Of a stretch of DNA of 64,000 bases, positions 739 through 18,009 are shown piece by piece (the stretch's first letter is position 1; every line of letters begins with the position of its first letter). The notes under the pieces are model-generated. The model ran no database searches. It was not told the DNA's origin and saw only the letters and a list, made by a program, of their open reading frames with translations. The translations under genes were made by a program, and so were the position numbers. The stretch comes from Floccifex porci. GTDB taxonomy: Bacteria > Bacillota_I > Bacilli_A > Erysipelotrichales > Erysipelotrichaceae. The stretch is from the NCBI RefSeq assembly GCF_009696175.1, contig NZ_VUMM01000007.1, positions 1 to 64,000 of the forward strand, in the 5' to 3' direction.

Positions 739-821
739 TTTCAAATACCTCCTACTTTCGTTTCAAATGAATACGATGTAAATTCAAAAAATGTATTTTC
801 TTCATAATAGTCTAAAAAGAT

Positions 822-840
822 CTATTTGAAATACAAATAG
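822..840 (-). terminator. Hairpin terminator after ABC exporter gene
   Basis: The arms 822-828 (CTATTTG) and 834-840 (CAAATAG) form a 7-bp stem just beyond the ABC transporter stop codon. On the minus strand the stem is followed by ATCTTTTTAG. The stem is AU-rich and weak. Confidence 0.45.
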
Positions 841-842
841 GA

Positions 843-2573
843 TTATATGCTTTTTTCAAATTGAAGTCGATAATATTTTGCATAAATTCCATTTTTCTTT
901 AATAATTCTTCGTGATTTCCCTTTTCTTTTATACCTTCCTGGTCAACTACAAGGATTTCATCCGCATTCTGTATGGTACTTAAGCGATGAGCAATGGTAA
1001 TACACGTTCTACCTTTTGACAAATGATCCAGACTCTTCTGAATAATTCTTTCACTTTCATTATCCAGTGCACTTGTCGCTTCATCTAATATTAATATTTT
1101 TGGATTTTTTAGAAAAACACGAGCTATTGAAATTCTCTGTTTCTGACCACCTGATAAACGAGTTCCTCTTTCTCCAACAAATGTCTGATATCCTTCTGGC
1201 AAACTCATGATAAAATCATGAATGTTTGCCAATTTTGCCGCTTCTACAATTTCTTCAAATGAAGCCATTTCATTGCCATATGCGATATTTTCAGCTATCG
1301 TTCCGGTAAATAAGTATACGTCCTGCTGTACTAAGCCAATTGCCTGTCGTAAACTTTTTAATGTATAGTTTCGTATATCCACTCCATCAATTTGGATTGA
1401 ACCTTTATTGACATCATAAAAACGAGGAATCAGTGAACACAATGTAGATTTACCCGATCCTGAAGGTCCCACCAAAGCCAGTTTTTTTCCGGAAGGAATG
1501 GATAAACATACATCTTCCAGAATGGTTTCATCTTTATTATACTGAAAAGATACATGTGAAAATTCAATATCCCCTTTTACATCTTTTAGTTCGATTGCAT
1601 CTTTTTCATCCTGAATATCCGGTATTAACGAAACAATTTCTTCAAAACGCCTGAATCCAGAAATTCCCTTCTGAAACATTTCCGTTAATTCAACCAGTAC
1701 TTCAATTGGAGAAATAAATATACCAATATATAAGGCAAAGGTTGCCAGATTGATCACATTGAAATTTCCATAAAGAATGAAGATACCTCCAAATACTAGT
1801 ACACATGTATACAACATTCCCTGAAAAAAGTTATTTCCTGCCTGAAAAGTTCCCATTGCCTTATAATTGTTTCGTTTTGAATCTAAAAATTTTTCATTGG
1901 CTTCCTTAAATTTTTCCAGTTCAATTTCTTCATTGGTAAACGATTGCACCACACGAATTCCCGATAAAGAGTCCTGTACAGCTGCATTGACATGACCTAT
2001 TTTTTTTCGATTGTCATCAAACGTTTTTCTCATCTTCTTATTATAGGAAAAAGAAAAAACTCCCATACCAATCGTTACAGTCAATAGAATCAAAGCCAAA
2101 GGCCAGTAGATCCATAATAAAATCACAAAAGAGCCTGTAATCTTTAAAAAAGATATAAATAAATTTTCAGGACCATGATGTGCAAATTCACTGATATCAA
2201 ATAAATCCGTAGTGATTCGAGACATCATAATTCCTGTATTGTTTTCATCATAATATCGAAAAGATAATTTCTGATATTGTTCAAACAGATCTTTTCGCAT
2301 ATCTCTTTCCATTTTTGCACCCATAATATGTCCCTGACACGATACATAATATTTACATAAAGCGCGGATCACATATAAAATGAATAAACCGATAAACATA
2401 TAAGGAAGAATCGATTTTATACTGGAATGAACAAAAATATGATGGGTGCATAAATTTAAAATCAATGGAAAAGAAATATCAATAACAGAAATCACACAGG
2501 CACAGAATAGATCCATAAATAATGGAAATTTATAAGGAGCATAATATTTAATAAATGATTTTAATGTTTTCAT
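843..2573 (-). CDS. ABC exporter, fused permease and ATPase (half-transporter)
   Basis: About 576 residues. An N-terminal exporter permease domain with six membrane helices (roughly 1-310) is followed by an ATPase domain. The ATPase carries Walker A GPSGSGKST near residue 370, a Q-loop (GLVQQDVYLF), the signature LSGGQKQRISIAR, Walker B ILILDEATSALD and the H-loop IAHRLST. All catalytic motifs are intact. It probably works as a homodimer exporting a lipid, drug or peptide; the substrate is unknown. The open frame extends five codons further to a TTG at 2588. Neither start has a clear Shine-Dalgarno, so the ATG is a preference only. It is transcribed divergently from the HAD gene at 2700, and a perfect cre site lies 47 nt upstream of the chosen start. 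Confidence 0.9.
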   Translation of the reverse strand: MKTLKSFIKYYAPYKFPLFMDLFCACVISVIDISFPLILNLCTHHIFVHSSIKSILPYMFIGLFILYVIRALCKYYVSCQGHIMGAKMERDMRKDLFEQYQKLSFRYYDENNTGIMMSRITTDLFDISEFAHHGPENLFISFLKITGSFVILLWIYWPLALILLTVTIGMGVFSFSYNKKMRKTFDDNRKKIGHVNAAVQDSLSGIRVVQSFTNEEIELEKFKEANEKFLDSKRNNYKAMGTFQAGNNFFQGMLYTCVLVFGGIFILYGNFNVINLATFALYIGIFISPIEVLVELTEMFQKGISGFRRFEEIVSLIPDIQDEKDAIELKDVKGDIEFSHVSFQYNKDETILEDVCLSIPSGKKLALVGPSGSGKSTLCSLIPRFYDVNKGSIQIDGVDIRNYTLKSLRQAIGLVQQDVYLFTGTIAENIAYGNEMASFEEIVEAAKLANIHDFIMSLPEGYQTFVGERGTRLSGGQKQRISIARVFLKNPKILILDEATSALDNESERIIQKSLDHLSKGRTCITIAHRLSTIQNADEILVVDQEGIKEKGNHEELLKKNGIYAKYYRLQFEKSI

Positions 2574-2619
2574 AGGAATAATGTACAATAGTTTTTAAAA
2601 AAAATCAAAAAACAGAAAC

Positions 2620-2633
2620 TGAAAACGATTTCA
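2620..2633. promoter_or_regulatory. Catabolite-responsive element (cre), perfect consensus match
   Basis: TGAAAACGATTTCA matches the CcpA-binding consensus TGWAANCGNTNWCA at every position. It lies in the intergenic region between the divergent ABC exporter and HAD/esterase genes, about 80 nt before the HAD start. CcpA control of one or both transcripts is inferred. No CcpA gene is in the window. Confidence 0.65.
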
Positions 2634-2699
2634 ATGTTTTTATTTATTTAATTTATGATATATTAAATGTATTAATTTTTATAACATTCAGGAGGAGCT

Positions 2700-3467
2700 A
2701 TGACAAAGATTATTTTCTTTGATATTGATGGAACATTGGTAAAATTAGGAACAACACAAATGAGTGAAAAAACGAAATATGCTTTACAGAAATGTAAAGA
2801 AAATGGCATTAAAATATTTATTGCCACAGGTCGTCCTTATATGTGGGTTCCCAAATTTGATATTGAATTTGATGGAATTGTTTCTTTTAATGGACAGTAT
2901 TGTATCGATACAAACGGTCTGATCTATAAAAATAATATTGATCCAGAAGATGTACTTCAATGTAAAAGAAATTGTGATGATATGAATATTCCTTTAGCTA
3001 TTGCCACAAAAGATAAAATGTGTGCTAATTATTCCCAAGAAACGTTAGACTACTATTTTACATTTGCTTCTCAAGTGTTAGAAATTGATGAAAATTATGA
3101 AGAAACTTTAAAAGAGCCTGTTTTTCAGATGATGGCAGCCATTGATTCGAAAGACGATGAAAAACTGATAGAAGGATGCAGGTCCATTCAGATTACTCGA
3201 TGGTGGGATCATGCCTGTGATATCATTCCTGTAAATGGCGGAAAAGAAATAGGTATTCAGCAGGTACTGGATCATTATGGCTTAAAAAAAGAGGAAGCCA
3301 TGGCTTTTGGAGATGGTGGAAACGATGCTACGATGATTTCGTATGTAGGTACAGGTATTGCCATGGGAAATTCAAAACAGGAAGTAAAAGAAATTGCGGA
3401 TTATATTACCTCTACTGTAGAAGAAGATGGAGTATATGATGCTTTAAAACATTTTCAATTAATTTAG
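2700..3467 (+). CDS. Cof-type HAD-IIB phosphatase
   Basis: 255 residues. Motif I FFDIDGTLV holds the nucleophile Asp and the acid/base Asp near residues 8-10. Motif II is IATGR near residue 43, and motif IV is FGDGGNDATMI with VGTGIAMGNS near the C-terminus. A large cap domain sits between motifs II and III, as in Cof/YbiV-type sugar-phosphate or cofactor phosphatases. The substrate is unknown. The ATG has an AGGAGG immediately upstream with good spacing. The esterase gene follows 9 nt later, so the two are probably co-transcribed. Two further Cof-type paralogues occur in this window (42774 and 62639). Confidence 0.9.
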   Translation: MTKIIFFDIDGTLVKLGTTQMSEKTKYALQKCKENGIKIFIATGRPYMWVPKFDIEFDGIVSFNGQYCIDTNGLIYKNNIDPEDVLQCKRNCDDMNIPLAIATKDKMCANYSQETLDYYFTFASQVLEIDENYEETLKEPVFQMMAAIDSKDDEKLIEGCRSIQITRWWDHACDIIPVNGGKEIGIQQVLDHYGLKKEEAMAFGDGGNDATMISYVGTGIAMGNSKQEVKEIADYITSTVEEDGVYDALKHFQLI

Positions 3468-3476
3468 GGGGCTATT

Positions 3477-4235
3477 ATGGTATTCACAAAAGATATATGG
3501 ATTACACCTTTTCAATTAAATCGTACTTTACATATTTATATGCCGGATACAATTTATAAAGAAGAAAGATTACCTGTTTTATATATGTTTGATGGACATA
3601 ACTTATTTTTTGATGATGTAGCTACTTATGGAAAATGCTGGGGTATTAAAGATTATCTGGATCAAAACGATGGTCGAATCATTGTTGTGGGAATTGAATG
3701 CAATCACAACGGAGATCAAAGATTGAATGAATTTACTCCTTATGACTTTTATGAAGAAGAATGGGGATATGTATCTCAAAGAGGTCGTCTTTTAATTGAT
3801 TGGATGATTCATGAATTAAAGCCTTATATTGATACGAATTATCCAACCAATCCAAGTAGAGATTACACCTATGTAGGAGGTTCCAGTATGGGTGGTACAA
3901 TGAGTCTGTATATGGCTATGCACCATTCCGATATGTATTCAAAATTTATTTGTGTATCTCCTCATATTTATCCAATGTATAAAAAATTCAGAGAAGATTT
4001 TGATTGTAAGATATTACCAGATACCCAGATTTATATTTCCTGGGGTGGATATGAATATCCTACACATCATATTTTTGCCATGGTTACCGATCAGAATCTG
4101 CAGATCATACGCGCTTTATTAAAAAAAGAAGGAGTGGATGTCATTCCTCATGTATTCAAAAACGACAATCATTCCGAATCTGCATGGCAAAAAGAATTGC
4201 CTGTATGGATGAAAGAATGTCATATTGTAAAATAA
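3477..4235 (+). CDS. Alpha/beta-hydrolase, putative esterase (esterase D/Fes-like family)
   Basis: 252 residues with no signal peptide, so cytoplasmic. The nucleophile elbow is GGSSMGG near residue 138, preceded by LYMFDGHNLF, a typical early strand and oxyanion region of the esterase D-like family. A candidate acid/His pair lies near the C-terminus (KNDNHSESAW, His about 233). These enzymes hydrolyse small acyl or carbohydrate esters; the substrate is not predictable. GGGGG ends 4 nt before the ATG. It is the second gene of the HAD-esterase pair and ends in a bidirectional terminator. Confidence 0.82.
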   Translation: MVFTKDIWITPFQLNRTLHIYMPDTIYKEERLPVLYMFDGHNLFFDDVATYGKCWGIKDYLDQNDGRIIVVGIECNHNGDQRLNEFTPYDFYEEEWGYVSQRGRLLIDWMIHELKPYIDTNYPTNPSRDYTYVGGSSMGGTMSLYMAMHHSDMYSKFICVSPHIYPMYKKFREDFDCKILPDTQIYISWGGYEYPTHHIFAMVTDQNLQIIRALLKKEGVDVIPHVFKNDNHSESAWQKELPVWMKECHIVK

Positions 4236-4258
4236 GGATGAGCTATTAACTCATCCTT
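4234..4258. terminator. Bidirectional intrinsic terminator
   Basis: The arms 4234-4242 and 4250-4258 (AAGGATGAG / CTCATCCTT) form a 9-bp stem with a 7-nt loop. It lies between the convergent esterase and EF-G-like genes. T-rich flank on the plus side and A-rich flank on the other allow termination in both directions. Confidence 0.8.
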
Positions 4259-4266
4259 TTCAATTA

Positions 4267-6333
4267 TTATTTATTGGCTTCAATGATACGTTTTGCGATT
4301 GGATCTGGTACAGGATCGTAACGGTCCATACTCAATTCATACGTACCTAAACCTTGTGTCATAGCTCTTAATTCAATGGAATATTTTGGAATTTCAGACA
4401 TTGGAACCTGTGCTTCAATTAACTGATCTCCATCTTCTGGTGTCATACCCATAATAGAACCACGACGTTTATTTAAATCACCAATAACTGTTCCTGTATA
4501 TTCATCTGGTACACGAATGGAAATATTCATAATTGGTTCCAGTAAAATTGGTCTGCATTTTTTCATAGCATCTTTAAACGCAAGATGTGCTGCCAGTTTA
4601 AAGGCCATTTCACTGGAATCCACATCGTGATATTTACCATCTTTTAATGTTGCCTTCATATTCACAACTTTATATCCAGCTAAAGGACCTTTTTCACAAC
4701 ATTCTCTTAATCCTGTTTCAACTGCTGGGAAATATTGTTTTGGTACAGCCCCACCAAATACTTTTTCATCAAAAACCATATCTTCAACACCACGATTTGG
4801 TTCAAAATCTACAAAGACATGTCCAAACTGACCATGACCACCGGATTGTTTTTTATGACGACCTTCACCCGTTGCTGGTTTAGTAATCGTTTCACGATAC
4901 ATGATCTTAGGATCCCCAATGACAACCTGTGCTTTGTATTTGTTCTTTAATTTATTTAAAATAACGCTTAAATGCTGATCTCCAATTCCATAAATAACAG
5001 TTTCTTTTGTTTCTTTATTGGAAGTCACTTTAAATGTAGGATCTTCTTCTGCAATACGAGCCAGACCATTGGACAATTTATCTTCATCATTTTTTGTAGC
5101 TGGAGAAATAGCCTGTCCATACATTGGCTGGGTAAATACAATTTCAGGAGCCATTAACAGTTTTCCTTTTTCACACAAAGTATCGTTTGTTTTTGTGAAC
5201 TGTAATTTATTGATCGCTCCAATATCTCCAGTAAACAATTTACCTGCTGCTGTCTGATGCTTTCCTTTGATGACAAAGATTGTTCCCACTTTTTCAGGTT
5301 TTCCATTGTTTCCATTTACCAGCGTTGTATCGGAAGATAAAACCCCTGATAAGACTTTCACATAACTGATTCTTCCTACAAATGGATCGGCAATCGTTTT
5401 AAATACCTGAGCTGTCAATACTTCCTGTTCCGTTGTTAACAGGTCTACGTTTACACCATTTGGAGTTGTTGCAGTATATAAACCTTTTTCCGAATAAGTT
5501 GGGAAATAAGTAACGATTAAATCCATCAGTCTTTGAATTCCAATTGATTGAGTGGCACTTCCAGAATATACAGGGATGATTTCTCCACTGCGAATTCCAA
5601 TACGAACTCCTCTTGTTAATTCAGCATCACTAAATTCTTCTCCAGAGAAGAATTTTTCCATCAGATCGTCATCTCCCATAGCAACGGCTTCAGCAATCTG
5701 GTCTTTATATAAAGATACTTCTTCAATCATATCTTCAGGAACCGGCTGTGGTTTGTCCCCTTCCGCTTTCGGTCCTTTATAATACCATGCTTTATTTTTA
5801 ATAATATTAACAGAACCTACAATTTCTCCATTTTCTACAATTGGAACTTCAAATGGAATAATGCTCTTTCCAAATTCTTCATGTAAAGCTGTATAAGCAT
5901 CGGAGAAGTTTGTATCTTCTTCATCTAATTTGTTAATAAAGAAAATGGTTGGTTTTTTGGATTGAATGGCCTGTTTGTAAGCTAATTTTGTTCCTGACTG
6001 TAAAGGATCTTTTGCACTGGCTACAATTAATACATTATCTCCTACATTAAATCCACTTTCTTTTTCTCCAACGAAATCCAAATATCCTGGTGTATCAATA
6101 AAGTTGATTTTACAGTTTTCCCATTCAATTGGAATAATAGAAGTATATACAGACAATCCTCTTGCGATTTCTTCAGCATCAAAGTCAATCAGAGAAGATC
6201 CATCACTTGTTTTCCCAAACCGATCAGTGGCTTTTGTATAATACAACATTGCTTCCAATACCGAAGTTTTTCCTACCCCGCTATGTCCAAGGACACTTAC
6301 ATTTCTAACTTCTGAACTTAAATAATCACGCAT
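4267..6333 (-). CDS. EF-G-like translation-factor GTPase with His-to-Tyr change at the catalytic site
   Basis: 688 residues with the domain order of elongation factor G. The P-loop GHSGVGKTS is at 16-24, G3 is DTPGY at 80-84, and G4 is NKLDEED near 135. Domains II-V follow, with the conserved domain-IV run GGHGQFGHVFVDFEP. In EF-G and EF-Tu the G3 motif ends DTPGH, and that His activates water for GTP hydrolysis. Here it is Tyr84. The ERGIT switch-I motif is also altered, to ARGLS. This matches the EF-G2 type paralogues described in other bacteria, whose ribosome-dependent GTPase is weak or absent. Canonical fusA is not in this window. The SD AGGAGG precedes the ATG. The ankyrin gene ends 12 nt upstream, so they probably share a transcript. 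Confidence 0.85.
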   Translation of the reverse strand: MRDYLSSEVRNVSVLGHSGVGKTSVLEAMLYYTKATDRFGKTSDGSSLIDFDAEEIARGLSVYTSIIPIEWENCKINFIDTPGYLDFVGEKESGFNVGDNVLIVASAKDPLQSGTKLAYKQAIQSKKPTIFFINKLDEEDTNFSDAYTALHEEFGKSIIPFEVPIVENGEIVGSVNIIKNKAWYYKGPKAEGDKPQPVPEDMIEEVSLYKDQIAEAVAMGDDDLMEKFFSGEEFSDAELTRGVRIGIRSGEIIPVYSGSATQSIGIQRLMDLIVTYFPTYSEKGLYTATTPNGVNVDLLTTEQEVLTAQVFKTIADPFVGRISYVKVLSGVLSSDTTLVNGNNGKPEKVGTIFVIKGKHQTAAGKLFTGDIGAINKLQFTKTNDTLCEKGKLLMAPEIVFTQPMYGQAISPATKNDEDKLSNGLARIAEEDPTFKVTSNKETKETVIYGIGDQHLSVILNKLKNKYKAQVVIGDPKIMYRETITKPATGEGRHKKQSGGHGQFGHVFVDFEPNRGVEDMVFDEKVFGGAVPKQYFPAVETGLRECCEKGPLAGYKVVNMKATLKDGKYHDVDSSEMAFKLAAHLAFKDAMKKCRPILLEPIMNISIRVPDEYTGTVIGDLNKRRGSIMGMTPEDGDQLIEAQVPMSEIPKYSIELRAMTQGLGTYELSMDRYDPVPDPIAKRIIEANK

Positions 6334-6345
6334 CTTTACTTCCTC

Positions 6346-7017
6346 CTATTTTAAAATCGGTTCCAATTGAGCACGACAATGCTCACGAACATAATCCAGA
6401 GCTCTATTTCCCTGTTTGTCTACCATGTCAACATCCGCTCCATAGGCAATCAGTTTTTCCACTAAAGATGCATATCCACCAAAGGCAGCTCTCATTAAAG
6501 ATGTACATCCATTGTTATCAAATAAATTCACATCCGCATTTCTTTCCAGAAGCAAAGCAATCGTATCACGTTTAAAGGCGATGCAGGCTTCCATTAATGC
6601 AGAACGTCCCACTTCATCCTGTGCATTGATATTAGCTCCTGCATCCAGTAAAAGCTGAACACAACGATCCTGTCCCAATAGACATGCTCTCATCAAAGCC
6701 GTTCTACCATTATCATCTTTCGCATTTACATTGGCTCCTGCATCAATTAAAGCTTTACATATTGTTTTATTTCCTTTTTTTGCAGCTCCCATCAATGCTG
6801 TTTTCCCATTTTTATCTGTCATATTTACATCAGCACCATTATCAATCAATAATTGTACAATGTCTTTACGATCTCTTTTAGCGGCTCTCATCAAAGCACT
6901 TCTTCCATCGCCATTCTGATAATTTACATCGGCTCCTGCTTTAATCTGAGCTGCAGCCATTGGAAAATCACCATTTGCACAAGCATCCCAAAATACTTTA
7001 TTAAAGTTCTGATCCAT
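6346..7017 (-). CDS. Ankyrin-repeat protein
   Basis: About 223 residues and nearly all ankyrin repeats. About six 33-residue units are visible, with the recurring signature GRSALMRAA...LLIDNGADVN. There is no signal peptide or membrane segment, so it is a cytoplasmic protein-binding scaffold; its partner is unknown. I chose the ATG at 7017 because AAGGAGG lies 8 nt upstream. The open frame continues to a TTG at 7041, which would place the SD inside the gene. It sits 12 nt before the EF-G-like gene. Bacterial ankyrin proteins of this size often mark defence, redox or contact-dependent systems, but no such partner is visible here. Confidence 0.85.
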   Translation of the reverse strand: MDQNFNKVFWDACANGDFPMAAAQIKAGADVNYQNGDGRSALMRAAKRDRKDIVQLLIDNGADVNMTDKNGKTALMGAAKKGNKTICKALIDAGANVNAKDDNGRTALMRACLLGQDRCVQLLLDAGANINAQDEVGRSALMEACIAFKRDTIALLLERNADVNLFDNNGCTSLMRAAFGGYASLVEKLIAYGADVDMVDKQGNRALDYVREHCRAQLEPILK

Positions 7018-7050
7018 TTCAATCTCCTCCTTTTGAATCAAATACAGAAA

Positions 7051-7078
7051 AACTGGAATATATAAAAATATTCCAGTT
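7051..7078 (-). terminator. Intrinsic terminator after glycyl radical enzyme region
   Basis: The arms 7051-7061 and 7068-7078 are an 11-bp perfect inverted repeat with a 6-nt loop. On the minus strand it is followed by TTTCTG. It separates the glycyl-radical-enzyme transcript from the ankyrin gene and overlaps the stop codon of the small ORF at 7077. Confidence 0.7.
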
Positions 7079-7139
7079 ATATAATGAAAAAGGAGTCATA
7101 TTCATATTTATTATTTAAAACAGCTTGAACTTTATTCAT
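7077..7139 (-). CDS. Possible 20-residue small protein with strong ribosome-binding site
   Basis: A short frame MNKVQAVLNN...SFFII starts at an ATG (complement of 7137-7139) with AAAGGAG 8 nt upstream, as good a signal as that of real genes nearby. It ends at a TAA that overlaps the terminator stem. It follows the glycyl radical enzyme by about 100 nt on the same strand. No family is recognised. Charge at the start and hydrophobicity at the end give no clear function. A chance SD is the main alternative. Confidence 0.3.
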   Translation of the reverse strand: MNKVQAVLNNKYEYDSFFII

Positions 7140-7236
7140 GAATACCACTCCTTTCGTTTCTGAATTCATCTTATCAAATCCAAAAGAAGTTACAAATAAA
7201 TTACTGACTTTACCAGAAAAACATCCAATTAAGCCA

Positions 7237-9576
7237 TTAGATGGTATTTTCGGTACGTGCAATGATAGCTTCCTGTGCCTGAGGCATCAAAGAAACAAAT
7301 TGTGCACAATATCCAGCCACACGTACGATCAGATTCGTATATTGTTCTGGATGAATTTGAGCATCTCTTAATACAGAAGTATCAATGACGTTAAACTGGT
7401 TGTGATAAATTCCTTTTCTGGCACTTACAATCAGAAAATCGATAAAAGATTCCATATTTTCCTGAATCGACTGTGGTGTAAAGCGCATATTAAGTAACTG
7501 TCCTGCAGCTACTTTTTCATTTGGTAATTTGGATACCGAATTGATAACAGCTGTAGGCCCATTTACATCCGTTCCCTGTGTAGGTGAACATCCTTCATTT
7601 AAAGGTGTCCCTTTTTTTCTTCCATCTGGAGTGGCACCTACTACAAACCCATTTGGAACATAGCTGGTAATATTGCTTGTGGACATCGTATAGCACGATA
7701 CCTTTGGTCCTTTGTTTTTTCGTAATGTTTCATAATCCGGTAATAATTCCAGATATGAATCAAATACATCTTTTACAATGTGGTCCACTTCATCTTCATC
7801 ATTTCCAAATTTTGGAAGCTGATGGATCATTTTCAGAATACGAGCCCCATCTATGGATTCATAATTTTCTTCCATTGCCTTCAATAATTCATCCATTGTG
7901 ATTTTTTCTTCTTCAAATACAAGTTTTTTAATGGTATATAAAGAATTTCCTACCACACTTGGACCGATATTGGATTGGGAGATGACATCGTATCGACATC
8001 CTCCACTCTTTAATGTCTTTCCTAAAGACAAGCTATCCTGAATCAGGCAGGAAGCAAATGGATCGGCATCAAATATTTCCAGACTTTCATCACAGACTTT
8101 ATCACAGGCAACCGAAATATCAGAATAGAATTTCAGATACTGTTTCCACTGATCCCATAATTCTTCATAGTTTCTGGCCTGAGTAGTATGCATCATGGAT
8201 ATACCTGAGTTTGGATCACACCCATCATGAAGCATGATTTCTAATACTTTTCCCCAGTTCACATAAGTCATTCCTGTAGCCCTATGTCCATATTTACCAG
8301 GTACTCCTGTTTCTACACAGCCAATTGGACAATAATCGTAGGCATCTTCTTTATCAATTCCTAAATCCAGCAATCCCTGAATGGCTACTTCATCATTAAA
8401 CATACTTGGCATTCCACATCCTGTGGCAATCAGTTTAGAACATGCCTTTAAAAATTCTCTAGGACTGTTACTGTGATATCGTGCTGAAAAATTTGGTTCT
8501 GCCAGAGAACAAAGATGCATCGCATCGATACAAAGATAACTTAAATCATTGACTCCTTCACTTCCATCTGGTTTCAGTCCGCCTACAACCAGATTGGAAT
8601 ACAATGGATATCCTTGTGAAAAACGCGTATGTCCATAAGGACGTACTTTATTATTGGAAGAAAGCATAATAAACATATGAGTAACCAGTTCCAGTGCATC
8701 TTCCTTTGTCAGAATACCCTGTTCAATATCATGGATATAATATGGATACATATACTGATCAAAGCGACCAAAACAGAACGAATGTCCATTGCTTTCAATC
8801 ATCTGCAGAATATGAATCATATAAACCGCTTCAACGGCTTCATAAAAACTCTTACAAGGTTGTTCCAACAGATCAAAGGCAATCTGACTCATTTTTAACA
8901 GTTCTTCTTTACGTTTGATATCTGCTTCTTTATCCGCTTCCTGTTTTAGTAATTTTCCATATCGTTTAAAGAAATTTAAAGCTCCTTCCAGACACAAGAT
9001 CACAGATTTATAATAATCATTTTCATCCTGATCCAGATGAGATCTGGCAATATCGATCAATTGATTAAATCCCATCTGCAAAGCCATTTCATGATCGGGT
9101 ACGATGTGTCCATCTCCGCTCATAGAAATTCCACCACGATGAATGACACCCTGTTTTTCAGCCAGTCGGATCTCTTGAGAAAGATTCTGATTGACTCTGT
9201 CCTCGTGAGTTTTTCCTTTCCAGTAAGGATATATAGATCGGAGGTCATCTTTTGTCTTTTCATCTATATAGAAAATGTCTCCCTCTCTTTTTTCAAATTC
9301 ATCCAGTTCATCAATAACCCATTGAATGGAAAATTCAGGAAAGATAGGAGCTGCAAAATTTCTGGAAGCCTGGTTTCCAAAAATTAAAGAATCGTTTTCA
9401 ATATAAATCGACATATTTTCCAGAGTATGCTTAAATGCCTTGGCTTTTCTTAAAATATAGGAATCTTCTTCACTTTCTTTAAAAGACTCGGTATATAAAA
9501 CAGCTCTTTGTGAACAGATACTGGCTTTTCTTTTTTCCATTTTATAACGAAGTCTTTCAATTCTGTTCTTGTCCAT
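7237..9576 (-). CDS. Glycyl radical enzyme of the PFL/diol-dehydratase (PflD-like) superfamily, substrate unknown
   Basis: 779 residues, full length for the family. The thiyl Cys is in YCPIGCVET (Cys420, with Glu422). The glycyl radical is Gly755 in RVAGY near the C-terminus. NGHSFCFGRFDQY (His265) resembles the substrate-binding run of B12-independent glycerol dehydratase, and SGDGHIVPD (His157) the second conserved His region. The GCVE context differs from what I recall of hydroxyproline dehydratase (HypD, GCVETGCFG) and choline lyase (GCVEPQKSG). The Asp after GCVE seen in glycerol dehydratase is not obvious. The exact reaction is therefore open: dehydratase, lyase or C-C cleavage. The gene follows the DeoC-like aldolase by 17 nt with AGGAGG, so the two are co-expressed. 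The required radical-SAM activating enzyme is not in this window. Confidence 0.85.
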   Translation of the reverse strand: MDKNRIERLRYKMEKRKASICSQRAVLYTESFKESEEDSYILRKAKAFKHTLENMSIYIENDSLIFGNQASRNFAAPIFPEFSIQWVIDELDEFEKREGDIFYIDEKTKDDLRSIYPYWKGKTHEDRVNQNLSQEIRLAEKQGVIHRGGISMSGDGHIVPDHEMALQMGFNQLIDIARSHLDQDENDYYKSVILCLEGALNFFKRYGKLLKQEADKEADIKRKEELLKMSQIAFDLLEQPCKSFYEAVEAVYMIHILQMIESNGHSFCFGRFDQYMYPYYIHDIEQGILTKEDALELVTHMFIMLSSNNKVRPYGHTRFSQGYPLYSNLVVGGLKPDGSEGVNDLSYLCIDAMHLCSLAEPNFSARYHSNSPREFLKACSKLIATGCGMPSMFNDEVAIQGLLDLGIDKEDAYDYCPIGCVETGVPGKYGHRATGMTYVNWGKVLEIMLHDGCDPNSGISMMHTTQARNYEELWDQWKQYLKFYSDISVACDKVCDESLEIFDADPFASCLIQDSLSLGKTLKSGGCRYDVISQSNIGPSVVGNSLYTIKKLVFEEEKITMDELLKAMEENYESIDGARILKMIHQLPKFGNDEDEVDHIVKDVFDSYLELLPDYETLRKNKGPKVSCYTMSTSNITSYVPNGFVVGATPDGRKKGTPLNEGCSPTQGTDVNGPTAVINSVSKLPNEKVAAGQLLNMRFTPQSIQENMESFIDFLIVSARKGIYHNQFNVIDTSVLRDAQIHPEQYTNLIVRVAGYCAQFVSLMPQAQEAIIARTENTI

Positions 9577-9593
9577 ATGACCTCCTTTTTACT

Positions 9594-10319
9594 TTATTTT
9601 TTTAAATCCAGGACAACAGGAACCGAACGATATCCTACACCCATACGATCAATTCCCATATTGATCAATTGTAGGAAATGTTCTCTTGTACGAATACATC
9701 CAGAACCTTTTACTTTACATTGATTTTTCACTTCATCCTGCATCACCTTAATGATTTCAGGTGTAGCTCCATGAGCTTCATATCCTGTTAAGAATCCAGT
9801 TGAAGTTTTCACAAAATCCGCATTGGCATCCATTGCACAATGACAGGCTTTTTTCACTTGTTCAACCGTTAATGCATCCGTTTCAAAAATCACTTTTACA
9901 GGTACATTGTAGCTGTGACATACATCGACAACCGCTTTAATATCTGCTGTTACTTCTTCATATTTTCCAGAACGGATCCATCCAAAGTTTGATACAATAT
10001 CCAGTTCTCCAATCACATCGGCATATTTTTCACATAAAATTTTAGCCTGTGCCACTTTGGATTCCGTTGAGCTGGCACCAAATGGAAAATCACATACTGG
10101 ACATAATTTTGTAACGGATCCTTCCACTGTAACATATGGCTTACATAATTCCATATAAGCTGGATTGATACAGATTGTTGCACACTTTAATTGTACTCCA
10201 TCTTTTGTCAAATCCACAATCTGTTCCTCTGTAAATTCAGGTTTTAATACTGAATAATCAATATAGGAAGCTAATTCTTCCAATGTCATTTCTTCTGCTT
10301 TTTTTGTTAATTGAATCAT
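9594..10319 (-). CDS. DeoC/DERA-fold class I aldolase with altered phosphate-binding site
   Basis: 241 residues. The catalytic residues of deoxyribose-phosphate aldolase are all present: Asp107 in ELDIVSNFG, Schiff-base Lys171 in VKTSTG, and Lys204 in KGSGCIRT. The residues that hold the substrate phosphate in E. coli DeoC are replaced. The Lys after KTSTG is Phe176, the second Gly of the Gly-Gly pair is Cys208, and the C-terminal GASS motif is GVGY (227-230). Aldol chemistry giving or using acetaldehyde is therefore likely, but on an unphosphorylated or different substrate. Annotation as deoC would probably be misleading. AAGGAG precedes the ATG. It is the first gene of a pair with the glycyl radical enzyme. 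Confidence 0.85.
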   Translation of the reverse strand: MIQLTKKAEEMTLEELASYIDYSVLKPEFTEEQIVDLTKDGVQLKCATICINPAYMELCKPYVTVEGSVTKLCPVCDFPFGASSTESKVAQAKILCEKYADVIGELDIVSNFGWIRSGKYEEVTADIKAVVDVCHSYNVPVKVIFETDALTVEQVKKACHCAMDANADFVKTSTGFLTGYEAHGATPEIIKVMQDEVKNQCKVKGSGCIRTREHFLQLINMGIDRMGVGYRSVPVVLDLKK

Positions 10320-10331
10320 AATATCATCTCC

Positions 10332-10371
10332 TTACGAACATATTAATACATTTACGAACATTTGTAAACAT
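10332..10371 (-). promoter_or_regulatory. Promoter with three phased 10-bp operator-like repeats upstream of the aldolase gene
   Basis: TTACGAACAT occurs at 10332-10341 and again at 10352-10361. A related copy, TTGTAAACAT, is at 10362-10371. The spacings are 20 and 10 bp, which puts all three on the same helical face. On the minus strand a -35 TTTACA, a 17-bp spacer and a -10 TAATAT overlap these repeats. A bound repressor would thus cover the promoter. No regulator gene is adjacent. Confidence 0.55.
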
Positions 10372-10376
10372 TTATG

Positions 10377-12410
10377 TTAAACAATCTGAAAAGTAATCTG
10401 TCCTTTTTGTTTATTGACCTCCGTTACCATTACATTTACTTTCTGACCTAATACATAAGAATTAAAATCACCGACTAATGACATTGTCAGTTCATCATAA
10501 ACATAAGAATCATACAACGTTCGTAAGGGTACCAATCCTTCAATACAATTATCCAATTCCACAAAAAATCCAAATTCCATTATGGAAATAATGGTACCTT
10601 CAAATGATTTAAACATATGATTTTCCATATATTCTGCCATTTTGTAATCGTTCACTTTTCGTTCCACAATAATGGCATCTTTTTCTTTTTGAGACATCTG
10701 AAAACTTTGTTTGCGTATCTTTTCTTCATCCTTTTTCACATTTCCTTCTTCCTTGTCAAAGATATATTTTCTTAACATACGATGAACCACTAAATCTGAA
10801 TATCTTCGAATCGGAGAAGTAAAATGACAATACGTTTCTAAAGACAAACCAAAATGACCTTTATTTTCATTTGAATATTCCGCTTTCTGCATTGAGCGTA
10901 AAGCCATTCTGGATACAACTTCATATAAATTATGATCTTCAATACTTTCCAACAATACCTGTATCGTTTTTGAAGTCACATCCTGATCATCAAAAAGAAT
11001 GTGTAAACTGTTTACATACTGACTTAACATCTCTATTTTCTTTTCTGATGGTTTTTCATGAATACGATACATACATGGATATTGATTTTTAAACAGTTCT
11101 TTTGCGACACAGACATTGGCCTGGATCATACACACTTCAATAATCTGTTCAGAAAATCCTCGTTCTTTGATCTGAATGGATACAGGTTTTCCTTTTTTAT
11201 TTAATGTGATCAAAGGTTCTCTGGTATTAAAATCAATACATCCTCGATCATAGCTTCTTTCTTTCATTAAGGAAGCACATTGAGCCAGATCGACCAAAGA
11301 AGGATAAATCTGACTGTATTGAGAAATGGCCTGCAGATTTCCTTCCAGAGCCTTATTCACATTTTCATAAGTGGCTCTTTGAATGGAATGAATCACACTT
11401 GGATAAATTTTATAGTTTGTACAATTTCCATGTTCATCCATTTCCATCTGACAGGTAATTGTACAGCGATCCACATTTGGATTTAATGAACAGATTCCAT
11501 TGCTTAATTTAAAAGGAAGCATAGGAATCACACGATCCACTACATAAATACTGGTACATCTGGCATAGGCTTCCTGATCGATAGGACTTGATGGCTTTAC
11601 ATAATGAGAAACATCCGCAATATGGACATATAATGTATATCCATATTTCTTCTTTTTAATACTGATGGCATCATCAAAGTCTTTGGCGTCATTTCCATCA
11701 ATAGTAAAGGCAATCAGATTTCTTAAATCAATTCGATTATCCAAATCTTTCTTTGTAACAATATCTGGTATTTCCATTAATTGTTTTTCTATACGCTCAT
11801 TAAAATTTATACGTACGTTGTTTTCTAACAAGATAGAAGTAATATCCACTCCCTTATCTTTAATATTTCCCACAATTGAATCAATTTCAACAATCATTGG
11901 ATTGTCATATTTCATTATTCTAACAATTGCTTTATCGTGATTATGAATTTTATAGTCATCTATATTTTTCACAATAAAAGTACGATGATAATCAATATCA
12001 CTAAAAAACTTTAATCCTTGTCGAGTATGAATAAATTCCCCTGTGATTTTATGAATGCCACGATTAAAAATCTGTTTGACTTTCCAGACTCCTTTTTCTT
12101 TCTGCACAAAGACTTCATCCTGATCAAATACATTTCTCGCATATTTTTTTTCCACATATATTTTTTTATCTTCATTAAAAACCATATATTCATATTTTGA
12201 AACATCTTTCACTTTCCCAATCATATCACTGGTAGTAACCAGTATATAATTTGTATGATTGTTGATAATCAGACGTTTTTCTACCAGTTCATTTAATGTT
12301 TTCACAAGACAAGTTAATTCCTGTGCACTTTTAATATTTAAAGCTTTTCTTAACTCATCAATATTCCATTTTTTTCTCTGATGAAATTTTTTTAATAATT
12401 CTTCTTTCAT
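10377..12410 (-). CDS. rnr: Ribonuclease R (3'-5' exoribonuclease)
   Basis: 677 residues in the RNase II/R family. An N-terminal winged-helix-like region (1-65) is followed by two cold-shock domains, then the RNB catalytic domain with the metal-binding run DAKDFDDAISI, and a C-terminal S1 domain (EGTIISIMEFGFFVELDN). RNase R degrades structured RNA and acts in trans-translation quality control. As in many Firmicutes it follows secG, but smpB and ssrA are not next to it. GGAGG ends 4 nt before the ATG. An intrinsic terminator T-tract abuts that SD, so expression depends on read-through or on a promoter inside secG. Confidence 0.93.
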   Translation of the reverse strand: MKEELLKKFHQRKKWNIDELRKALNIKSAQELTCLVKTLNELVEKRLIINNHTNYILVTTSDMIGKVKDVSKYEYMVFNEDKKIYVEKKYARNVFDQDEVFVQKEKGVWKVKQIFNRGIHKITGEFIHTRQGLKFFSDIDYHRTFIVKNIDDYKIHNHDKAIVRIMKYDNPMIVEIDSIVGNIKDKGVDITSILLENNVRINFNERIEKQLMEIPDIVTKKDLDNRIDLRNLIAFTIDGNDAKDFDDAISIKKKKYGYTLYVHIADVSHYVKPSSPIDQEAYARCTSIYVVDRVIPMLPFKLSNGICSLNPNVDRCTITCQMEMDEHGNCTNYKIYPSVIHSIQRATYENVNKALEGNLQAISQYSQIYPSLVDLAQCASLMKERSYDRGCIDFNTREPLITLNKKGKPVSIQIKERGFSEQIIEVCMIQANVCVAKELFKNQYPCMYRIHEKPSEKKIEMLSQYVNSLHILFDDQDVTSKTIQVLLESIEDHNLYEVVSRMALRSMQKAEYSNENKGHFGLSLETYCHFTSPIRRYSDLVVHRMLRKYIFDKEEGNVKKDEEKIRKQSFQMSQKEKDAIIVERKVNDYKMAEYMENHMFKSFEGTIISIMEFGFFVELDNCIEGLVPLRTLYDSYVYDELTMSLVGDFNSYVLGQKVNVMVTEVNKQKGQITFQIV

Positions 12411-12428
12411 TTAACCTCCATAAAAAAA

Positions 12429-12443
12429 AGACCTATCCGGTCT
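12429..12443 (-). terminator. Terminator between secG and rnr
   Basis: The arms AGACC (12429-12433) and GGTCT (12439-12443) form a short GC-rich stem. An uninterrupted run of eight T on the minus strand follows. The stem begins directly at the secG stop codon, and the T-run reaches the rnr Shine-Dalgarno. It probably attenuates transcription into rnr. Confidence 0.7.
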
Positions 12444-12674
12444 CTAAATAATTTGTAATGCGATCACAATCACAAAAAATAAAATTCCACAAATTAAAGT
12501 CATTCGACTGATTACTTTTTCAGGACCTCTTTCTTTCTGAACCGCAAATAAGTTCAAATCTCCACTTCCTGTAAAAGCTGCAGATAAACCATCAGATTTT
12601 CCACTTTGTAACAATGTCAGAATAATAATAATTCCGGATAAGACCATTAATACTATATTTAAAATATCTTTCAT
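12444..12674 (-). CDS. secG: Preprotein translocase subunit SecG
   Basis: 76 residues with two membrane helices (about 3-21 and 55-75). The conserved connecting loop LLQSGKSDGLSAAFTGSGD matches SecG. It is the small subunit of the SecYEG channel. It is followed by rnr, the usual Firmicute order. The promoter upstream has TATAAT preceded by TG, with TTGATT at about 17 bp. Confidence 0.92.
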   Translation of the reverse strand: MKDILNIVLMVLSGIIIILTLLQSGKSDGLSAAFTGSGDLNLFAVQKERGPEKVISRMTLICGILFFVIVIALQII

Positions 12675-12756
12675 AAATTAACACTTCCTATTTTTGGATT
12701 ATAACACATGTTATAAAAAAATCAATTGTTTTATTTTCTATTTTAAATTCCTGTGT

Positions 12757-12838
12757 TATAATCTTTCACGTTGCCATTCATAAATTCCCTTTAACGTAAC
12801 TGGCAGCATAAGAAAGTGGTATTTGCCACTTCTTTTTT
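12757..12838 (+). ncRNA. Candidate small structured RNA with own promoter and terminator
   Basis: An extended -10 (TG-T-TATAAT, hexamer 12757-12762) predicts a start near 12769. GTTGCCA (12770-12776) can pair with TGGCAGC (12801-12807), enclosing a 24-nt loop. A terminator hairpin AAGTGG/CCACTT (12814-12819/12826-12831) with a T-run follows. The transcript would be about 70 nt. It matches no RNA family or riboswitch that I recognise. It could be an independent sRNA or an attenuating leader for the downstream 177-residue gene, which also has a TATAAT at 12850-12855. Confidence 0.45.
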
Positions 12839-12875
12839 ATTTATTGGAGTATAATAGAAGAAAAAGGAGATAAAG

Positions 12876-13409
12876 ATGAATCAGAAAACATATCCTGTAT
12901 TATATGTACAGAAAATCGCAACAAGATTATATAAACATTGTGGTATTTATCCCACTTTATATTTTAAAATTGAGGAAAATGAAAAGTTAAAAGACACACC
13001 CTATTATGCACAATATATGAAAAAAATAGAAAGTGAAGTACCAAAAGCCATTATTCATCAATTTACCATGTCACAACCAGTCAGTGTAACCAACGATCGT
13101 ATCGTATTTATATTGTTTAAAGACAACATAGATTTAAATCAGGTAAAAAATTTCTGCATGGGCATGTTAGAAGAATTAGAATTTTATACAAAGGAAATTC
13201 ATACAGGACAATATGCCTGTCTGGATACAATGTTAATGGAGATGGATCGACCGGCTTCCCCTTTTAAATTCAATAAAGTGGGTGAAAAATTAACCCAGAC
13301 CAATCTATTGGATTCATGTATTGAAATTTTAAATGGCCATGAAAATCCTCAGGACAATGGTATTTTAACAACTTTTGAAGATTTTATTCAAGAAAACGAA
13401 GAAGATTAA
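12876..13409 (+). CDS. Uncharacterised 177-residue cytoplasmic protein
   Basis: The frame begins MNQKTYPVLYVQKIATRLYKHCG and has AAGGAG 6 nt before the ATG. It is soluble, with no signal peptide or membrane helix, and has an acidic tail (FEDFIQENEED). No domain is recognised. Mixed alpha/beta composition suggests a folded single-domain protein. It stands alone between a candidate sRNA/terminator and a bidirectional terminator, so it is probably monocistronic. Codon usage looks like its neighbours, which supports a real gene. Confidence 0.75.
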   Translation: MNQKTYPVLYVQKIATRLYKHCGIYPTLYFKIEENEKLKDTPYYAQYMKKIESEVPKAIIHQFTMSQPVSVTNDRIVFILFKDNIDLNQVKNFCMGMLEELEFYTKEIHTGQYACLDTMLMEMDRPASPFKFNKVGEKLTQTNLLDSCIEILNGHENPQDNGILTTFEDFIQENEED

Positions 13410-13410
13410 A

Positions 13411-13446
13411 AAAGTAGAATTTCAGTTTTATCTGAATTCTACTTTT
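13411..13446. terminator. Bidirectional intrinsic terminator
   Basis: AAAGTAGAATTTCAG (13411-13425) pairs with CTGAATTCTACTTT (13432-13445) with one bulged T. T-rich tracts occur on both exits. It serves the convergent 177-residue gene and the rubrerythrin fusion gene. Confidence 0.75.
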
Positions 13447-13451
13447 CTTTT

Positions 13452-15518
13452 TTAATAATTTCCACAGTTGATTTCAAAATAAGCTTGAGGATGATCACAG
13501 ACTGGACAAACTTCAGGAGCTTGTGTTCCCACTACGATATGGCCACAGTTTCGACATTCCCATACCTTGACTTCACTTTTTTCAAAGACTTCAGCCATTT
13601 CTACATTCTTTAATAAAGCACGATATCTTTCTTCATGGTGTTTTTCAATGGCTCCAACCATTCTGAATTTTTTGGCCAGTTCTGTAAATCCTTCTTTTTC
13701 AGCTGTCTTGGCAAATCCATCATACATATCAGTCCATTCATAGTTTTCACCTTGGGCTGCACTCAATAGATTTTCTTTTGTATCACCAATTCCATTTAAT
13801 TCTTTGAACCACATTTTCGCATGTTCTTTTTCATTGTCCGCTGTTTTTAAGAATAAAGCAGAAATCTGTTCAAATCCTTCTTTTTTTGCTTTGGAAGCAA
13901 AATAAGTATACTTATTTCTTGCTTCAGATTCTCCTGCAAATGCTGCCATCAGATTTTTTTCCGTTTGTGTTCCTGCATATGGATTTGATTTTACTTCTTC
14001 TACTTTTTTTAGCTGATTGCCAGAAGCTTTACATAAAGGACAGACAGGATTTTGTCCCGGTTCCACTTCAAAGACTTCTTTACAAATGCTGCATTGATAT
14101 TTGATTGATTTCTTTTTATTTTTTTCTTTTGAAGCCATACCAACGTGTTGAATACCTGTATATTTATGAATGTCTTCATTTGTGGTTGCTAACTGATCCA
14201 TTGATAAAGAATGAATGGATGTATTTCCAGTGATTCGAGCAAATGTTTTTAATTCTTCATTGGATACATTTAAATAATTGAATACTCTAAGACTGGCTTT
14301 TTCAACATTTAAACGTGACCGCAAAGCTGGATCCTGGGTCGCAATACCCACTGGACAATTTCCGGATCCACATATTTTATATTGTTGACAAGCCGCTGCA
14401 ATCAAGGCCGCACTGGCAATAGCTATCGCATCGGCTCCCATCGCAATGGCTTTTGCAAAATCAGACGATACACGCAATCCTCCAGTAATAACCAGCTGTA
14501 TATCGCTTCCTATTGAATCCAGATATTTTCTAGCTCTGGATAAAGCATAAATTGTAGGTATCGATGTTGATTCTCTTAAGAAATAAGGACTGGATCCTGT
14601 GGCTCCTCCTCTTCCATCAATGGTAATAAAATCCGGATTGGCCCATACACAATATTCCAGATCCTGTTCAATTTTACCCGCTGCGATTTTTATTCCAATC
14701 GGTCTTCCATTGGATCGTTCACGTAACATTGATACCATGTCTTTTAGATCCTCTTTGGAATTGATTTCTGGAAATTTACTTGGACTCTGGATATCTTCAC
14801 CTTTCTTTTTTCCACGAATAGCCGCAATTTCATCTGTTACTTTTTCTTTTGGTAAATGTCCTCCCATACCTGGTTTTGTACCTTGTCCAATTTTAATTTC
14901 AATAGCATCCGCATTTCTTAAATTTTCATCATTAACCGAATATTTGTTTGGAATGTATTCAAAAATATACTTATATGAAGCCTCTCTTTCTTCTGGCAAT
15001 ATTCCACCTTCACCTGAACACATTGCGGTTTTTGCCATGGAAGAACCTTTTGCCAAAGCCACCTTTATTTCTTTTGATAAAGCGCCAAAAGACATATGAG
15101 AAATGTAAACTGGACTTTCCAGTACCATTGGCTGTTTTGCCTTTTTTCCAATAATTGTTTTTAAACTGACCGGATCCTGATCATTTAATGGCATAGGATT
15201 CAATTGCGCTCCCATAATCAGAATGTCATCCCAGGAAGGTAAAGGCATTTCCGTTGCCATTGCACTATGTAAGGATTCCCCTTTTACCGCCATTTCATGA
15301 ATTTCTTTCATATAACGATTGTTTTTATCTTCTCTTGATAAAGCAGCATCGTACATCAGATTGATCTTTGTATTTTGTTTTGTTTTCGAATCCGATATTT
15401 TTTCAAATTTAGAAATTGGTTGTTTACAGATTGGACATGCATCCAATGATGATAAAGGTTTTCCCTGTTCTTGTTCATCATAGATCATCCCACAAATCGT
15501 ACATTTATAAATTGCCAT
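13452..15518 (-). CDS. Rubredoxin / glutamate-synthase FMN domain / rubredoxin / rubrerythrin / rubredoxin fusion protein
   Basis: 688 residues from the ATG with AAAGGAG 9 nt upstream; the longer frame to 15581 lacks an SD. Domains: (1) rubredoxin-like knuckles, Cys 6, 9, 28, 31. (2) A glutamate-synthase FMN-binding barrel, about 75-460, including [10 protein letters not shown] and a C-x5-C-x4-C cluster site at 377, 383, 388 before PVGIATQDP. (3) A second rubredoxin, Cys 476, 479, 493, 496. (4) A rubrerythrin di-iron four-helix bundle, about 512-640, with [10 protein letters not shown] and EKEHAKMWF. (5) A terminal rubredoxin, Cys 655, 658, 671, 674. There is no glutaminase domain. A soluble electron chain from an FMN domain to a peroxide-reducing di-iron site is inferred. 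It could be an oxygen/peroxide-defence reductase rather than a glutamate synthase. Confidence 0.88.
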
Positions 15519-15586
15519 AATATTAGTCTCCTTTAATAATATTATGAAAAAAAATAAATTGGTTTTCAAATAAAAACTCAAAACTT

Positions 15587-16297
15587 TTAGTTCTGAGCCT
15601 GTTTAATGTAATCGTTGTACGCTTTTGCCAGAGCATGAGCAATCAAATCCTGATTTTCTTCTTTATTTAATCGGGCACATTCTTCTGGATTGGTAATAAA
15701 ACCAGCTTCAAATAATATTGAAGGGATTTCAAGATAATCCACAACATATAGCGCTTCATATTCTGTGGTACGCGTTCCTAAATCTTCTTTCCAGCCACTT
15801 TCGAATAGATTTTCTGAAATCTTGCTAGCTATATCCATACTAATTGAATCATTTGCTCTTACATTTGAATAATACCCATATACACTGCTATCTTCATTGG
15901 AATTGATATGAATAGAAATAAAATAATCCGCTTTTTCTTTTTTAGCAAGCTCTACACGTTCTTTCAGATCGTCTTCTTCATTTTCAGACCAGGATATATC
16001 ATCACTTGTACGTGTATATAAAACTTTAATTTCTGGATTGATCTTTTCTAATTCTTCCCCCATTTTTAGAGCAATCGCAAGAGTAAGATCTTTTTCACAA
16101 GTCCCGTCTTCTCCAACGGTTCCTCCATCATATCCCCCATGTCCTGCATCAATCATAATCGTAGCAATTGTTTCTACACTTGTTTCTTCTTCCTTTTTAT
16201 TCGATGAAAAACCCATATATATTCCAATACCTATCACTAAAACAATTGGTAAAATCAGTAATAATAAACGACTTATTTTTAATTTTCTTTTTTGCAT
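15587..16297 (-). CDS. N-acetylmuramoyl-L-alanine amidase (Amidase_3, CwlD-like)
   Basis: 236 residues with an N-terminal membrane anchor (about 8-27), so the enzyme faces the cell wall. The zinc amidase domain shows [13 protein letters not shown] (first His), [10 protein letters not shown] (Glu), FISIHINSN (second His) and a C-terminal [13 protein letters not shown] with the catalytic Glu. It cleaves the bond between MurNAc and the peptide stem. CwlD-type enzymes act in sporulation in Bacillus, but related single-domain forms act in vegetative wall turnover; the role here is open. AAGGTGG lies about 12 nt upstream of the ATG. Confidence 0.88.
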
Positions 16298-16365
16298 GTG
16301 TGTATTTTACCACCTTTTTTTCTTTTTTGCATTTTAAAGACTAAAAATTCAGGTAAAATAAAAGT

Positions 16366-17319: not shown

Positions 17320-18009
17320 TTGACGAACATTTTTTTATAAATTCTTTAAAGATAAGATTCTGATCTTCTTCTTTCTTAAATAAAAATTCAGGATGCCATT
17401 GAACCGCCCATACAAAAGAATAATCAGGATGGTATATCGCTTCAATCAGATTATCCTCACTATAAGCCATTGCTTTAAGTCCCTTTCCTAATGTTTTAAT
17501 TGCCTGATGATGAAGAGAATTTACATATAATTCTTCTTTCTGTATCAGAGAATAAAAAGGACTTTGTTTATCAATTGAAACTTTATGAACTTTATTATCA
17601 TAAGGTTTTATTTGTCTATGATTCACTCCACTATTGTATTGAGATGGAAGATCCTGGTATAAAGTTCCATTAAAATATACATTGATCCATTGAATGCCTC
17701 TACAGATTCCTAAAACGGGTTTATCTGTTTTTAATGCATGATCCAGTACGATTTTTTCCAGTTTATCTCGTTTTGGACAACATTCTACATTCATTAAAGG
17801 TTTTTCCTGATCATATTCTGGATCAATGTCATGTCCACCTGTGAATAAGAAACCATCACATTTTTCTAAAAATGAATCAATTTCTTCCATAAATGGAAGC
17901 ATGACAGGAATGGCTTTATGTACAATGCATCCTTCAAAATATTCTGGAAGCATCCATATACTTTGTTTATCATCATCCCATAAAGGCAAACACCAATTAC
18001 CGGTTTCAT
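17312..18009 (-). pseudogene. Peptidase C26 (gamma-glutamyl-GABA hydrolase-like), frameshifted near the N-terminus
   Basis: The class I glutamine-amidotransferase-type hydrolase shows FTGGHDIDP, the nucleophile elbow VLGICRGIQWINV, and a C-terminal AVQWHPEF (catalytic His) and Glu. The frame open from 17989 lacks the usual N-terminus. An ATG at 18007-18009 gives MKPVIGVC in another frame, exactly the missing family start, and overlaps the antiporter stop codon (ATGA). The two frames are joined if one base is added in the CC at 17985-17986. This is a one-base deletion in a short C/G run: a real inactivating mutation, a programmed slip, or a sequencing error. A TTG start at 17989 is possible but would remove the first strand. 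Confidence 0.75.

Follow-up and report, generated by a model that had tools for sequence, protein, structure and literature searches.

In radical-mediated glycolysis as described by Ma et al., cleavage by FsaA or FsaB reportedly yields hydroxyacetone and glyceraldehyde-3-phosphate (G3P), with subsequent reduction by GldA. The glycyl radical enzymes (GREs) of this anaerobic route, YbiW and PflD of E. coli, open 1,5-anhydroglucitol- or 1,5-anhydromannitol-6-phosphate to 1-deoxyfructose-6-phosphate, according to a review (PMC12441222). Here we describe a GRE gene that lies directly downstream of a gene for a DeoC-like aldolase of the deoxyribose-phosphate aldolase (DERA) family in 64,000 nucleotides of Floccifex porci DNA (contig NZ_VUMM01000007.1, positions 1 to 64,000; "the window"), contig C42 of a 2.0-Mb genome that is 98.8% complete (labelled G000). 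A preliminary description of this locus regarded the route served by the two genes as unrecognised; it is known in part, as a GRE-plus-aldolase scheme has been published for the two anhydrohexitol phosphates, and what does differ here is the DERA-family partner. The pair is conserved and its GRE belongs to a subfamily separate from YbiW and from the diol dehydratases. We propose, in a judgement that stands evenly balanced, that the two proteins catalyse consecutive steps of a route resembling radical-mediated glycolysis, one in which a DERA-fold aldolase takes the place of FSA.

Conservation of the gene pair

Both open reading frames were confirmed on the - strand, 17 nt apart as the preliminary description had it, with the aldolase gene upstream and a good ribosome site ahead of each gene.

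9594..10319, - strand: DeoC/DERA-like class I aldolase, 241 aa, upstream gene of the pair (open reading frame and TIGR00126 match); codons for Asp107 at 9999-10001, Lys171 at 9807-9809, Lys204 at 9708-9710 and Ser232 at 9624-9626
9577..9593, - strand: 17-nt gap between the two genes, containing the ribosome site of the GRE gene (AAAAAGGAGGTCAT-ATG)
7237..9576, - strand: GRE, 779 aa, downstream gene of the pair (open reading frame and profile matches); codons for Cys420 at 8317-8319, Glu422 at 8311-8313 and the radical Gly755 at 7312-7314

Conserved GRE-DeoC neighbourhoods were looked for in related genomes, as the preliminary description had suggested, and were found far above chance. In a sample of 87 genomes from the same family as the window genome, the clade of the window aldolase was present in all 16 genomes carrying a GRE of the window's own clade (clade I, see below) versus 12 of the 71 others (Fisher p=3e-10, uncorrected for phylogeny), and the corresponding counts by genus were 12/12 and 8/47 (p 1e-7, likewise uncorrected). 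Of the 16 clade-I genomes, 14 had the two genes side by side in the same order or facing one another at a distance of about 1 kb. A separate collection of named genomes showed a DeoC-like gene near the GRE in 24-25 loci, which span Erysipelotrichaceae, Sporomusaceae, Selenomonadaceae and one metagenome-assembled genome (MAG) of Propionibacteriaceae. No report of a GRE paired with a DeoC-like aldolase was found in the open-access literature. This conserved adjacency and co-occurrence bear out the functional link supposed earlier, in which the GRE plausibly supplies the aldol substrate.

Several relatives of the pair, or of the aldolase, have a richer setting. In one Erysipelotrichaceae operon type (L057, positions 2481-14180; also L055, L058, L072, L122, L125, L127, L141, L145 and L155), the aldolase-GRE-activase set lies in an operon with 3-hexulose-6-phosphate synthase and 6-phospho-3-hexuloisomerase (HxlA/HxlB), which in L057 both exceed their NCBIfam cut-offs. 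This operon type also encodes a corrinoid protein, URO-D methyltransferases, a RACo-type reductive activase and a C_GCAxxG_C_C protein. At L053, L074 and L093, a DeoC-like aldolase gene is followed by a split transketolase (N and C halves) with no GRE nearby, and L053 and L093 also contain a DeoR regulator. The more distant DeoC-like aldolases of L065-L071 (43-50% identity) are encoded in operons with GH1 glycosidases, a LacAB/RpiB isomerase, a ribulose-phosphate-3-epimerase family protein, a GFO/IDH oxidoreductase, DUF4867 and DUF7916. A cluster of 99-aa proteins at these loci resembled shell proteins, but a microcompartment locus was rejected in view of the annotated neighbours just listed (GH1, LacAB/RpiB, epimerase and GFO/IDH).

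Placement of the two enzymes and further parts of the proposed route

The GRE carries the thiyl motif Cys420-Val-Glu422 and the glycyl motif R752-V-A-G755-Y, matches the PFL-like (PF02901, 611 bits) and Gly_radical (PF01228) domains, and scores above the cut-off of the PFL2/glycerol dehydratase-type model TIGR01774 (725.4 versus 678.2 bits). It fell in no curated single-function GRE family of NCBIfam (HypD, 493 of 1100; CutC, 457 of 1050) and was also far under the NCBIfam equivalog cut-offs for sulfopropanediol dehydratase, indoleacetate and hydroxyphenylacetate decarboxylases, and PFL. HypD reference sequences were sought by sampling the phylum, and none were obtained. We built a tree of 110 GRE sequences by a quick search with SH-aLRT support only, in which the branching order of the three main groups is unreliable. 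These groups are (a) glycerol dehydratase (GDH), propanediol dehydratase (PD) and PflD; (b) a YbiW clade of 15 rows that includes relatives from Firmicutes, Atribacterota and Chloroflexota; and (c) the window subfamily of 76 rows (SH-aLRT 100), apart from both. Within the window subfamily, clade I (40 rows) holds the window GRE and every DeoC-linked locus of the tree, and clade II (28 rows) comprises Enterobacteriaceae, Treponema, Oscillospiraceae, Christensenella and others. The two clades have the identical residue at 226 of the 235 positions conserved in both, differing at 9, and have in common the motifs GGISMSGDGH, ESNGHSF, GCVETxxPGKxGHRATGMTY, SQSNIGP and YTMSTSNITSYVPNG.

The window GRE is not of the YbiW type, from which it differs by its separate clade, an identity of 36% and different conserved pocket motifs; YbiW-type enzymes have the TGM motif after Cys-X-Glu in common with the window subfamily, but their other subfamily motifs are different. 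A diol dehydratase of the glycerol type is not supported either, since the enzyme lies outside the clade of the GDH and PD structures (1r8w and 5i2a) and its motif after Cys-X-Glu is YbiW-like. Where the window subfamily has TGM, GDH and PD have an Asp-containing motif, and this Asp has a role in substrate binding in the GDH structure. In complete E. coli genomes, nothing close to the enterobacterial GRE of the window subfamily was found, and plasmid matches were at most 41% identical, the enterococcal ones grouping with YbiW. At L149 and L150 (Oscillospiraceae MAGs), one locus combines a window-subfamily GRE with a GRE of the YbiW type and a ROK-like kinase, which suggests that the substrates of the two GREs are related yet distinct.

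The aldolase matches the deoC model TIGR00126 at 180.5 bits, above the cut-off of 117.3, and its AlphaFold model (pLDDT 94) superimposes as a TIM barrel on the DERA of L. brevis (Z 33, root-mean-square deviation 1.3 A, 217 residues). Asp107, Lys171 and Lys204 are invariant among 27 relatives, confirming the DERA catalytic residues named in the preliminary description, and the protein forms a separate clade with conserved motifs of its own. The accompanying claim that the phosphate site has been lost is weakly founded. The positions of Gly205, Ser238 and Ser239 do differ from E. coli DeoC, but Phe in place of Lys172 is ordinary, being natural (Phe160) in a B. halodurans DERA assayed on deoxyribose-5-phosphate (PMC8403123), and an E. 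coli S238I/S239I mutant retains cleavage of this substrate (PMC5975929). In addition, Cys208, at the Gly205 position, is Gly in several GRE-paired orthologues, and the Ser238/239 region is longer by one residue and contains the invariant Ser232, with Lys or Arg in the same loop of GRE-paired members.

The preliminary description noted that no activating enzyme is encoded in the window; this is correct for the window, but a matching activase is present on contig C4 of the same genome. Two of the three GRE activases of the genome lie beside its other two GREs, and the third is an orphan (C4, 31168-31968). This orphan is 53% identical to a clade-II GRE-linked activase and 46-49% identical to others of the subfamily, compared with 31-35% to the other activases of the genome and to PflC, and we propose from these identities that it serves the window GRE in trans. 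The genome also encodes a GldA-like dehydrogenase on C23 (486.8 bits, under the cut-off of 700) and an FSA-like protein, so that its candidate set of parts for radical-mediated glycolysis consists of the GRE, the DERA-type aldolase, the activase and these two; a cognate phosphotransferase system (PTS) was not identified in it. Five DeoC-family genes are present, on contigs C7, C12, C40, C42 and C43, among which that on C12 is the better canonical DeoC (291.7 bits). The gene on C43, whose product shares 63% identity with the window aldolase, lies between phosphoglucose isomerase and pyruvate kinase genes, with no GRE nearby.

Proposed pathway and its alternatives

Most of the loci examined for YbiW-type GREs in relatives of the window genome have an FSA gene directly adjoining. 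In clade II, an FSA-like gene lies no more than about two genes from the GRE in Epulopiscium, a Ruminococcaceae UBA2656 MAG and an Erysipelotrichaceae MAG, and most enterobacterial clade-II GREs lie near fsaB, usually with gldA too. The clade-II loci L140 and L177 encode FSA proteins that group with the FSA neighbours of YbiW-type GREs. An Erysipelotrichaceae genome with a clade-II GRE and an adjacent FSA gene (G049) is without the DeoC-like clade, and Pelosinus has both FSA and DeoC-like aldolases. Read most simply, this distribution would mean that the aldolase family was exchanged once, at the base of clade I, while the chemistry of the GRE stayed nearly as it was.

The neighbours of related GREs also bear on the substrate, which the preliminary description took to be unphosphorylated. 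In Pectinatus the gene row runs aldolase, mannose-family PTS IIA/B/C/D, GRE, activase and aldo/keto reductase, and the Enterobacteriaceae loci contain a PTS EIICBA, DeoR, GldA (above its cut-off) and NagA- and NagB-like genes. A ROK kinase lies beside YbiW-type relatives in Atribacteria, the regulators at related loci are of the DeoR and GntR-UTRA types, and some clade-II Oscillospiraceae loci have ribose-type ABC transporters, not PTS. From the PTS, ROK-kinase and DeoR/GntR neighbours we infer a phosphorylated substrate, and with the phosphate-site argument weak, the earlier view is not supported. The enterobacterial NagB-like proteins keep the DGH...NE motif, and the NagA/NagB-like partners of clade II hint at a relative of the amino sugars as a possible substrate there.

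In the proposed route, the GRE would be activated in trans by the C4 activase to carry a glycyl radical on Gly755 and a thiyl radical on Cys420, with Glu422 as general base/acid. It would convert a phosphorylated polyol or anhydro-sugar by C-O cleavage to a deoxy beta-hydroxycarbonyl phosphate, most likely a 1-deoxy-2-ketose phosphate, and the aldolase would form a Schiff base on Lys171 and release, by retro-aldol cleavage, G3P and a C3 carbonyl such as hydroxyacetone. The DERA-fold enzyme would in this way fill the role held by an FSA-family aldolase beside YbiW-type GREs and beside the sister clade II.

Acetaldehyde, the product named in the preliminary description, is possible but becomes the second choice because FSA-like aldolases adjoin close GRE relatives with the same conserved residues. 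It would arise if the GRE converted a pentitol- or hexitol-phosphate, or else a 2,5-anhydrohexitol phosphate, to a 2-deoxyaldose phosphate for classical DERA cleavage to acetaldehyde and either G3P or erythrose-4-phosphate. We consider this unlikely, even though the aldolase belongs firmly to the DERA family with all catalytic residues present, and DeoC-like relatives lie beside a split transketolase or HxlA/HxlB, which could act on erythrose-4-phosphate or on pentose phosphates. The change of GRE clade also goes with a change of aldolase family, and the product could have shifted with them; yet the conserved GRE residues are barely changed between the FSA-linked and DeoC-linked clades (9/235), and it counts against a 2-deoxyaldose phosphate that 2-deoxyaldoses are not known as substrates of FSA-type aldolases.

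Quite improbable, in our judgement, is the route of the preliminary description as a whole, a diol dehydratase acting on an unphosphorylated terminal 1,2-diol and an aldolase free of a phosphate site that releases acetaldehyde and a shorter free aldehyde. The altered Gly205, Ser238 and Ser239 positions and the ribose-type ABC transporters at some clade-II loci would suit it, but Phe at the Lys172 position is ordinary, the Ser pair is non-essential and Ser232 invariant, related loci have PTS neighbours, and the GRE neither falls in the GDH/PD clade nor has the GDH Asp. That the aldolase serves nucleoside salvage as an ordinary deoxyribose-phosphate aldolase and is a chance neighbour of the GRE, as its above-cut-off TIGR00126 match would allow, is hardly probable given the better DeoC on C12, the separate clade with its own motifs and the recurrence of the pairing across many genera.

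Several points weigh against the proposed route of a DERA-fold aldolase acting in place of FSA. The pocket motifs of the window subfamily differ from YbiW at conserved positions, so that the substrate is probably not 1,5-anhydroglucitol-6-phosphate. Hydroxyacetone as a DERA donor was not documented in the literature searched; DERA enzymes use acetaldehyde, and acetone and fluoroacetone are weak donors. An FSA-like protein is, moreover, encoded in the window genome itself, on C40. Twelve genomes of the family have the aldolase clade although no full-length clade-I GRE was detected in them, and it also occurs beside HxlA/HxlB, split transketolase or GH1/PTS genes where the GRE is absent; the aldolase may therefore have a different role or serve more than one route. 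Finally, fsaB-gldA in Enterobacteriaceae mostly shares 85-93% identity with the core locus of E. coli, and its adjacency to the clade-II GRE may for that reason partly reflect position.

More broadly, and with a confidence somewhat short of even, we suggest that this hitherto unassigned GRE subfamily, with members in Erysipelotrichales, Selenomonadales, Enterobacteriaceae, Spirochaetota and Chloroflexota, has as its substrate neither 1,5-anhydroglucitol- nor 1,5-anhydromannitol-6-phosphate but another sugar phosphate, possibly amino-sugar-derived in the clade with NagA/NagB-like partners, and that in one clade a DERA-family aldolase was recruited instead of FSA to split a deoxyketose phosphate. 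If true, this would be a third branch of a very recently recognised anaerobic sugar route, would point to a dietary or host sugar whose use by gut bacteria has gone unrecognised, and would place the DERA fold, heavily used in biocatalysis, naturally in an apparent FSA role. Two purified proteins and one activase would suffice for a direct test.

Surroundings of the pair and comparison with described systems

Two further features flank the pair.

10332..10361, + strand: operator-like direct repeat TTACGAACAT-N10-TTACGAACAT just 5' of the aldolase start (putative function)
7051..7078, - strand: terminator-like hairpin with an 11 bp stem and a T tract, 3' of the GRE (pattern match only)

The single promoter assumed in the preliminary description did not emerge from a promoter scan, which gave promoter-like matches only at chance level. 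The 57-nt gap 5' of the aldolase gene contains the 10-bp TTACGAACAT twice, 20 bp apart, or two helical turns, and this arrangement is the sole match in the 2.0-Mb genome with up to 3 mismatches allowed. Related ACGAACA-type boxes were found 5' of some DeoC-like genes, and the repeat may be a DeoR-type operator. An Rfam scan of window positions 1-20000 gave no RNA element. The hairpin is likely the end of the transcription unit; a 20-codon open reading frame with a good ribosome site (7077-7139, - strand; MNKVQAVLNNKYEYDSFFII), between the GRE gene and an ankyrin-repeat-like gene, stops at the hairpin start. The ankyrin-repeat-like gene and an EF-G-like gene (both within 4267-7041, - strand) keep their position 3' of the GRE in two close relatives (L051 and L084). 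Elsewhere in the window, a single open reading frame (13452-15581, - strand) appears by eye to be a fusion of rubredoxin, an FMN-binding glutamate synthase domain, rubrerythrin and a second rubredoxin.

Compared with described DeoC/DERA enzymes, the window aldolase has the same TIM barrel and Asp/Lys/Lys catalytic set, but is 36-39% identical to the nearest solved DERAs, with extra residues after TSTGF, Gly-Tyr-(Arg/Lys)-Ser in place of Ser-Ser, a GSG(C/G)IR motif and the conserved extra Asp77 and Asp148. The B12-independent glycerol and 1,2-propanediol dehydratases (1r8w and 5i2a) belong to the same GRE family and keep the His, Ser and Glu motif positions, but are 37% identical to the window GRE and have the Asp motif where it has TGM. 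PflD has the same GRE fold, and a window-subfamily GRE lies close to pflD and fsaB in three enterobacterial loci; PflD is, however, 35% identical to the window GRE, groups with GDH and PD, and has the Asp-type motif after Cys-X-Glu. The closest likeness in organisation is to the system of YbiW, FsaA/FsaB and GldA, with which the window subfamily has in common a GRE and a class I aldolase, a specific activase, DeoR regulators and PTS genes, as well as the GRE motifs GNQAS, SGDxH, ESNGHS and GC(V/I)ETxxxGK(W/Y)GxRxTGM. The window GRE nonetheless forms a separate supported clade and differs in the pocket motifs GGISMSGDGH, SQSNIGP and YTMSTSNITSYVPNG, and its partner aldolase is of the DERA family whereas that of YbiW is of the FSA family.

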